Position numbers and translations under genes: made by a program. From contig JACUUV010000006.1 of NCBI GenBank assembly GCA_014859095.1, positions 1-64,000 of the forward strand: a stretch of 64,000 nt of DNA, given 5' to 3'. The notes beneath the pieces were generated by a model. It had not been told where the DNA came from. It made no database searches and saw nothing but the letters and a program-made list of their open reading frames with translations. This document shows, one piece after another, positions 5,422-6,290 of the stretch (position 1 is its first letter; each line of letters starts with the position of its first letter). The stretch comes from Clostridia bacterium (GTDB taxonomy: Bacteria; Bacillota; Clostridia; Peptostreptococcales; Acidaminobacteraceae).

Positions 5422-5688
5422 TTAAAGCATTCTTACAAGTGGGTTGGCAAACAATAAAATAAGAGCGATTACCAGTCCGTAGATACCAGTTGTCTCTGCA
5501 ACTGCAGCACCAAGTAACATTGTTCTGACGATATCTCCTTGAGCTTCAGGTTGTCTACCGACGCCTTCAGCGCCTTTACCTGCCGCATAACCTTGTCCGA
5601 TACCAGGTCCGATACCTGCGATCATCGCGAGACCCGCGCCAATTGCTGAAGCGGCAAGAATAAGAGCTTTTCCTGTGATAGGTTCCAT
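5422..5688 (-). CDS. atpE: ATP synthase c subunit, Na+ type, two helices
   Basis: An 88-residue rotor-ring proteolipid with two membrane helices joined by the polar loop around [11 protein letters not shown]. The Na+-binding set known from Ilyobacter and Propionigenium c subunits is present at the same numbering: Gln32 in PGIGQG, Val63, Glu65 and Thr66 in AVAETTG. By family knowledge this indicates Na+ rather than H+ coupling. It lies directly downstream of the fused four-helix c gene, so both could enter the same ring. AGGAGG ribosome site. Confidence 0.97.
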
Positions 5689-5738
5689 AATATAATTCCT
5701 CCTTAAGATTATGTTTAAATGATTGATCTCAATCCGCG

Positions 5739-6290
5739 TTAGAGTCTTAATAACGGATTGGCAAATAACAATACGAGCGCGATAACCAGCGCATAGATAC
5801 CCGTCGTTTGAGCGACAGCCTGTCCAACAAGCATCGTTCTTACGATCTGGGATTGTAATTTTGGTCTTTTACCGACCGCTTCCGTTCCTTTTCCAGCGGC
5901 GTAACCTTGACCGATACCAGGTCCTATACCTGCGATCATCGCCAGTCCCGCACCTATTGCGGATGCCATGATGATCAGTGCGCCACCCTCTAAATTGACC
6001 AAAGGATTACCAAAGAGCATTATGAGTGCGACAACCAGAGCAAGTATGCCGGATGTTTCTGCAACAGCAGCACCAAGCAGCATGACCATGGTGGTCTCTC
6101 TTTGACTTTTTGGATTTCTCGAAACAGCTTCAGCACCTTTACCTGCAGCATACCCCTGTCCAATGCCGGGGCCGATTCCTGCGATCATAGCAAAACCGGC
6201 GCCGATTGCAGTTGCGGAAAGGATGAGTGCTTTCGGTTCAAAGGTCATCAACCATTCGAAAAAGCGCATTATGAAATTGGTTGAATCCAT
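5739..6290 (-). CDS. atpE: Fused double-hairpin c subunit (four helices)
   Basis: 183 residues made of two complete c hairpins in tandem, about residues 18-98 and 100-183, after a short N-terminal extension. Both hairpins keep the PGIGQG motif (Gln45, Gln128). The first keeps the ion carboxylate (Glu78 in AVAETSG), but the second has Gln161 in AVAQTTG. One protein therefore occupies two ring positions with one ion site. This matches the c1 proteolipid described for the Acetobacterium woodii Na+ F-ATPase, whose ring mixes such a subunit with normal c subunits. Gene order atpB, fused c, normal c also agrees. A mixed ring here is inference. Confidence 0.95.

Follow-up and report, generated by a model that had tools for sequence, protein, structure and literature searches.

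A fused double-hairpin c subunit beside a single c subunit in a Clostridia F-type ATP synthase operon: a probable hybrid Na+ rotor with relatives of three to six hairpins

Two neighbouring genes in the F1Fo ATP synthase operon of a Clostridia bacterium (family Acidaminobacteraceae) probably code for the rotor of an F-type ATP synthase that is coupled to Na+ and belongs to the F/V-hybrid kind found in Acetobacterium woodii, a reading to which we give a probability of roughly 0.88. Judged by its sequence the gene pair is a further case of this known rotor, in which a fused c subunit with two hairpins, the first bearing the ion-binding Glu and the second a Gln in its place, is encoded next to a single-hairpin c. 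We hold this reading because the fused protein matches A. woodii c1 (PDB 4bem chain J, hereafter 4bem_J) in both sequence and fold, because the operon is F-type, because Clostridium aceticum has the same kind of pair, and because the Gln of the second hairpin is conserved and residue 70 follows a pattern that suits it. The window (the whole stretch of DNA that was analysed, 64,000 nucleotides of contig JACUUV010000006.1 in assembly GCA_014859095.1) holds the operon at positions 60-7733 of the minus strand, and from the list of open reading frames and Pfam matches its order is ATPase_gene1, AtpI, a, fused c, single c, b, delta, alpha, gamma, beta and epsilon, with both c genes between those for a and b (Table 1). 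We take the delta and alpha subunits to be such from their sequence and operon position, and gamma, beta and epsilon from their sequence and the gene order.

Table 1. Operon genes and key codons in the window.
Feature	Position	Strand	Basis
Fused double-hairpin c (c1-like), 183 aa	5739..6290	-	ORF, translation, alignment, 4bem_J match
Single-hairpin c (c2-like), 88 aa	5422..5688	-	ORF, translation, alignment, Pfam
Glu78 codon GAA, hairpin 1 ion-binding carboxylate	6057..6059	-	Codon read and alignment
Leu83 codon, hairpin 1, equivalent of Tyr70 position	6042..6044	-	Alignment to single c
Gln161 codon CAA, hairpin 2, in place of carboxylate	5808..5810	-	Codon read, alignment, conservation
Tyr166 codon, Tyr70 position retained in hairpin 2	5793..5795	-	Alignment to single c
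Glu65 codon GAG of single c	5494..5496	-	Codon read and translation
F-type a subunit (stator), stator Arg retained, start codon uncertain	6328..7098	-	Pfam ATP-synt_A
AtpI-like protein	7019..7438	-	Pfam ATP-synt_I
ATPase_gene1 (AtpZ-like) protein	7443..7733	-	Pfam PF09527
b subunit	4853..5386	-	Pfam ATP-synt_B
Delta subunit (presumed)	4323..4865	-	ORF; similar gene, same place in relatives
Alpha subunit (presumed)	2795..4315	-	ORF; similar gene, same place in relatives
Gamma subunit (presumed)	1912..2772	-	ORF
Beta subunit (presumed)	487..1890	-	ORF
Epsilon subunit (presumed)	60..473	-	ORF

The frame of the fused gene has no internal stops, and Pfam ATP-synt_C was matched by two stretches of its product and by one of the single c. 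When the hairpins were aligned to the single c, whose ligand set for Na+ is complete (Gln32, Val63, Glu65, Thr66 and Tyr70), hairpin 1 of the fused chain was seen to have Gln45, Val76, Glu78, Thr79 and Leu83 at these places and hairpin 2 to have Gln128, Val159, Gln161, Thr162 and Tyr166; the Na+ ligand set is thus present in hairpin 1 (Q45/E78/T79) as well as in the single c. A first-pass annotation had described 5739-6290 as two c hairpins with Glu78 followed by Gln161, and the next gene as an 88-residue c with Gln32, Val63, Glu65 and Thr66; translation, codon reading and alignment confirmed the former, translation and alignment the latter, and the Gln45 and Glu78-Thr79 that it pointed to in the fused subunit are the residues found in our alignment. 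A sequencing error at Gln161 was ruled out, because the Gln is kept across the fused c of relatives: all 16 fused proteins that were aligned have it, and so does the last hairpin of every complete E...Q-type chain, 131 in number (written with E or Q for the residue at the carboxylate place of each hairpin; 131 of 134 complete distinct chains overall). One of these 131, the E-Q gene L075/L093, is divided by an apparent frameshift.

The Na+ ligand set is no proof of Na+ use, because Sporomusa ovata has the Q...ET/S motif, yet its ATPase was not stimulated by Na+ according to an excerpt of PMC9430772; in addition, an excerpt of PMC7911925 states that all Na+ ATP synthases examined can transport H+ as well. 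It nevertheless seems unlikely to us that the ring moves protons instead of Na+ in vivo, or moves either ion, in view of the complete Q32/V63/E65/T66/Y70 set of the single c and of the Na+ dependence that the excerpted PMC7911925 gives for C. aceticum, which has the same arrangement.

The nearest solved protein to the fused c is A. woodii c1 (4bem_J), matched by phmmer over residues 7-181 with an E-value of 3.2e-64, and the two share the Gln as well as the segment [11 protein letters not shown]. A Foldseek search with an AlphaFold model of the fused c (16 sequences, pLDDT 76.8) also ranked 4bem_J first (TM 0.80, E 1.9e-12), with V-type chains far behind (Enterococcus hirae 2bl2, TM 0.64). The first-pass view that the A. 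woodii arrangement is reproduced here therefore stands for the gene pair, for its ligand set and its place in the operon as well as for the match to 4bem_J, and the alignment to A. woodii c1 agrees with it.

In the rotor that we propose, the fused c would be present once or a few times, each copy filling two adjacent hairpin places of the c-ring, and the single c would fill the rest; a common ring, its size, its ion and its energetics are what we infer from the genes, residues, homology and conservation. Hairpin 1 would hold Na+ through Glu78 and Gln45, while Gln161 could neither release a proton nor bind Na+, and the place of hairpin 2 would hence pass the stator empty. In E. hirae the Na+ site consists of Gln110 and Glu139 and is completed by Thr64 (PMC2359735, as excerpted), a residue that we ourselves assign to the preceding hairpin. 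By analogy, the Glu78 site would be completed by the preceding c, the dead Gln161 site would be bordered by hairpin 1, which is Tyr-less at Leu83, and hairpin 2, which has kept Thr162 and Tyr166, would complete the live Glu65 site of the next c. The Na+ F-type rings characterised by 2013, that of A. woodii included, all had 11 hairpins according to an excerpt of PMC3692424; with 11 hairpins, two of them supplied by a single fused chain as seen in the crystal of A. woodii, the ring would have 10 sites and would use about 3.33 Na+ per ATP, not 3.67. The same genome also has a rotor gene of a V/A-type ATPase, two sites with Rnf/Nqr-type membrane genes, and a membrane pyrophosphatase (G000:C98, C96, C50 and C112), and the Rnf/Nqr-type genes are a candidate for the ion pump that would feed the ring.

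With a cut-off of E <= 1e-42, and with the window's own genome in every taxonomic sample, the fused c turned up in all four genomes sampled from the genus and in 27 of 37 from the family (incomplete genomes included in both), in 68 of 148 from the order, in 11 of 291 from the class (three of these 11 belonging to the same order) and in 11 of 299 from the phylum. The fused c is ordinary in its order and sparse beyond, and the first-pass statement that the arrangement is known from few lineages has to be amended in this sense. In 2015 Brandt and Mueller reportedly listed about a dozen species that have one Fo- and one Vo-type c. The E-Q pattern was seen in Fusibacter species, and E-Q-Q in Acidaminobacter hydrogenoformans DSM 2784 and Alkalibacter mobilis. 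The operon of Acetobacterium tundrae DSM 9173 (L080) has two single c genes after a and no fused c, and a PF00137 search of this genome returned those two and one match in a 150-residue frame.

Such an operon can evidently do without a fused c, as A. tundrae illustrates, and it might be argued that the fused subunit of the window is silent or minor, with only the single c in the working ring (11 sites) and some other role for the fused protein, for instance in assembly or under special conditions. We think this slightly less probable still than a proton-driven ring, since the frame of the fused gene is intact in the window, the Gln has been retained in the complete E...Q chains as described above, the place of the fused c beside a and b is constant in the loci whose context was read, and c1 is present in the A. 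woodii crystal ring (4bem_J). That the fused c is instead the K subunit of the genome's separate and, by its neighbours, presumably V/A-type ATPase, with whose V-type layout of four helices and one live hairpin it agrees, was rejected as next to impossible, since that enzyme has its own 148-residue K on a different contig, and since the fused c lies between F-type a and b, carries its live Glu in hairpin 1 and resembles F-type c1 and c most, with E. hirae K the weaker fold match. A hybrid rotor containing both the fused and the single c remains our preferred reading.

Relatives of the fused c were found to extend to much longer chains. Similarity to the window's fused c was the criterion by which loci were collected, the first set being limited to the 80 best among 450 confirmed places (79 loci), and a collection of this kind is not an unbiased census. 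The hairpin scan covered 183 of 190 loci (L002-L004 and L129-L132, being other genes or repeats of the window, were omitted) and counted identical hairpin sets once, giving 135 distinct fused c proteins, 28 of them with three to six hairpins. Two hairpins were present in 107 (104 E-Q and 3 E-E, the latter of another type with Glu at position 32), three in 15 (13 E-Q-Q and 2 E-E-Q), four in seven (4 E-Q-Q-Q and 3 E-Q-E-Q) and five in five (3 E-Q-Q-Q-Q, 1 E-Q-E-E-Q, and 1 E-Q-E-Q-E that is cut by a contig end); a single protein had six, E-Q-E-Q-E-Q, in a 538-residue frame with a single c downstream (L116, genome G047). The first hairpin has Glu in 132 of 132 chains of the E...Q type. The E-E proteins (L081, L082 and L083), in which both Glu are retained and which adjoin a single c, represent a two-carboxylate, fused rotor type without dead sites.

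Chains with at least three hairpins are encoded directly after a in F-type operons and are followed by the single c and b, the exceptions being the extra copies in L029/L030 and the chain of L124, which is interrupted by the end of its contig. In L029/L030 an extra E-Q-Q gene lies upstream of atpI, ahead of an operon with an E-Q gene and a single c of its own. Two E-Q genes in tandem were found at L021/L104, L065, L091, L097 and L185. The E-Q-Q-Q-Q chains (L050, L071 and L074) occupy frames of 448-462 residues in three metagenome-assembled genomes, two of which are titled sheep rectum and goat duodenum. In these chains Gln32 has also been lost (to Cys or Val) from two or three of the three middle hairpins, as expected if these bind nothing, and the last hairpin keeps Gln32. 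In genome G438 (L177, L178 and L180) a and the fused c are on one contig and a c hairpin, b, delta and alpha on another, so the operon seems to be split; a third contig carries another F-type set, the c of which has a different site (D-L-E-A-I).

Mis-assembly is an unlikely source of the long chains, because neighbouring hairpins are 49-81% alike in DNA (27% at one L029/L136 junction, where the register of the comparison was off), the operons are normal apart from the extra chain of L029/L030, and the pattern is repeated in several related genomes. An AlphaFold model of a five-hairpin chain was weak (pLDDT 60.8, three sequences). A literature search at the level of titles and abstracts brought up no report that we recognised as describing an F-type c with at least three hairpins or runs of dead hairpins, although an earlier report is possible.

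If each ion site is completed by the preceding hairpin, as the geometry of E. hirae has it, then Tyr70 would be needed only before a live hairpin. We counted residue 70 in the 132 distinct E...Q-type fused chains, leaving out the three E-E proteins, and found Tyr70 in 0 of 169 hairpins that are followed by a Gln hairpin in the chain, in all 8 Gln hairpins that precede a Glu hairpin, and in 128 of 131 hairpins at the chain end, the other three having Phe; contrary to the rule, a Glu hairpin followed by another Glu hairpin has Leu in 3 of 3 cases. A. woodii c1 fits the rule as well, with Phe in hairpin 1 and Tyr in hairpin 2 of our alignment. The absence of Tyr70 before a dead hairpin and its presence at the chain end fit dead Gln sites. 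History confounds most of these counts, since most middle Gln hairpins resemble copies of hairpin 1, which was already without Tyr; the rows are related, hairpins share descent, and the counts are not independent. The clearest exception to this effect is an E-Q-Q chain from the genus of the window (L014 at 3989-4798, the same place as L085; genome G002), whose middle hairpin groups with last hairpins in the tree, being 74% identical to its own last and 62% to its own first hairpin, and has Phe at position 70, with Tyr in the last hairpin. L014/L085 thus amounts to a natural test of the Tyr70 rule.

For the origin of the long chains we built a tree from 137 hairpins of chosen loci with columns 65 and 70 masked (78 columns available). 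A branch with SH-aLRT 91 set apart 38 of 38 first hairpins, 8 of 9 middle Glu hairpins and 22 of 23 middle hairpins of the Gln-then-Gln kind from the last hairpins, the Gln hairpins followed by Glu, and the single c. In a tree of the thinned set (408 distinct hairpins reduced to 284 at 95% identity within class, hairpins with more than six gaps having been taken out), 25 of 33 middle Gln hairpins fell with the first hairpins. These groupings suggest one old fusion, followed by copying either of hairpin 1, with later loss of its Glu, or of the E-Q pair. In AU tests neither one clade comprising all Gln hairpins (p 0.51) nor the opposite grouping of first, middle Glu and middle Gln hairpins without L014 (p 0.73) was rejected; a second independent loss of Glu to Gln in the middle hairpins is possible on these trees.

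Three further comparisons gave no distinguishing signal. An excess of the single c is not predicted by ribosome-binding strength, which was stronger for the single c at 48 and for the fused c at 54 of 102 loci (medians -11.25 and -11.5, Wilcoxon p 0.026), with some starts misassigned (L050, L074). Rnf did not separate the genomes, PF02508 being matched in 45 of 46 with the fused c and in 9 of 10 without it (54 of 56 overall); the sole fused-c genome without a match is G443, one of the three E-Q-Q-Q-Q genomes. All 125 a subunits from fused-c relatives and all 24 controls have the stator Arg, and in a comparison of these two sets, from which identical, short or stop-holding rows had been excluded and in which 20 of the 125 accompany Q-Q chains, no column passed our thresholds as a stator signature of the fused c or of consecutive dead hairpins.

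The window itself adds one member, from the Fusibacter group, to a known hybrid rotor in a form that is ordinary in its order. What may be new is the F-type chain of three to six hairpins with runs of dead ones, the two-hairpin hybrid and archaeal multi-hairpin chains being known already. We tentatively propose, at a little under even odds, that this clade sets the ion/ATP gear of its enzymes by disarming sites in ever longer fused chains instead of changing ring size, the chains of three to six hairpins being part of working Na+ rings. If a ring has 11 hairpins and one fused chain, the ions per turn would be 10 for EQ and EEQ, 9 for EQQ, EQEQ and EQEEQ, 8 for EQQQ and EQEQEQ, and 7 for EQQQQ; in the last ring, four adjacent dead places spanning some 130 degrees, which is more than one ATP step, would then have to pass the stator. 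Such rings would be graded natural low-gear motors, possibly tuned to ATP-driven Na+ pumping, and one reading is that the long chains serve such pumping and not synthesis. They would also form a natural series with, as we would predict, stepwise fewer ion sites, in which the number of empty places that is tolerated and the effect on the ion/ATP ratio could be measured. A single Gln hairpin (E56Q) in the engineered single-chain c10 of Bacillus PS3 stops ATP synthesis (PMC8809890, citing Mitome 2004, as excerpted), yet the chains described here have kept between one and four Gln hairpins each, in runs of up to four, which is hard to square with the accepted view of how the motor works. PS3 c10 likewise consists of fused F-type hairpins, its E56Q being engineered and the Gln hairpins described here natural and conserved.

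The closest known system is the c-ring of A. woodii (c1 with c2/c3), which likewise combines a fused c carrying Glu and then Gln with a single c; the PDB entry 4bem contains nine c2 chains and one c1. The composition of that ring has been solved by structure, whereas the rotor of the window is known from its genes alone, and A. woodii has two single-c genes, both for one and the same protein according to an excerpt of PMC7911925, where the window has one. C. aceticum, a different organism with the same kind of arrangement, has one fused c1 (Q....ET then Q....QT) and one single c2 in the gene order of A. woodii, and Na+-dependent ATP hydrolysis has been reported for it (PMC7911925, in the same excerpt). 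The rotor chains of V-type enzymes (E. hirae NtpK, eukaryotic V-ATPase c) also consist of four helices with a single ion site in each chain; in NtpK, which belongs to a V-type enzyme, the live residue is Glu139 in the second half of the chain (PMC2359735, as excerpted), whereas the window's fused c has its live Glu in hairpin 1. The relatives with three to six hairpins resemble the archaeal A-type K, which has 3 hairpins in Methanocaldococcus jannaschii and 13 in Methanopyrus kandleri by the same excerpted source, in having many hairpins per chain, but the latter are A-type and not F-type. All 13 hairpins of M. kandleri have the full ligand set by that excerpt, whereas the long chains described here contain at least one dead hairpin and, unlike the M. 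kandleri type, are accompanied by a separate single c wherever the contig reaches. The window likewise differs from that single-chain rotor in having a single c beside a fused chain whose hairpin 2 is dead.
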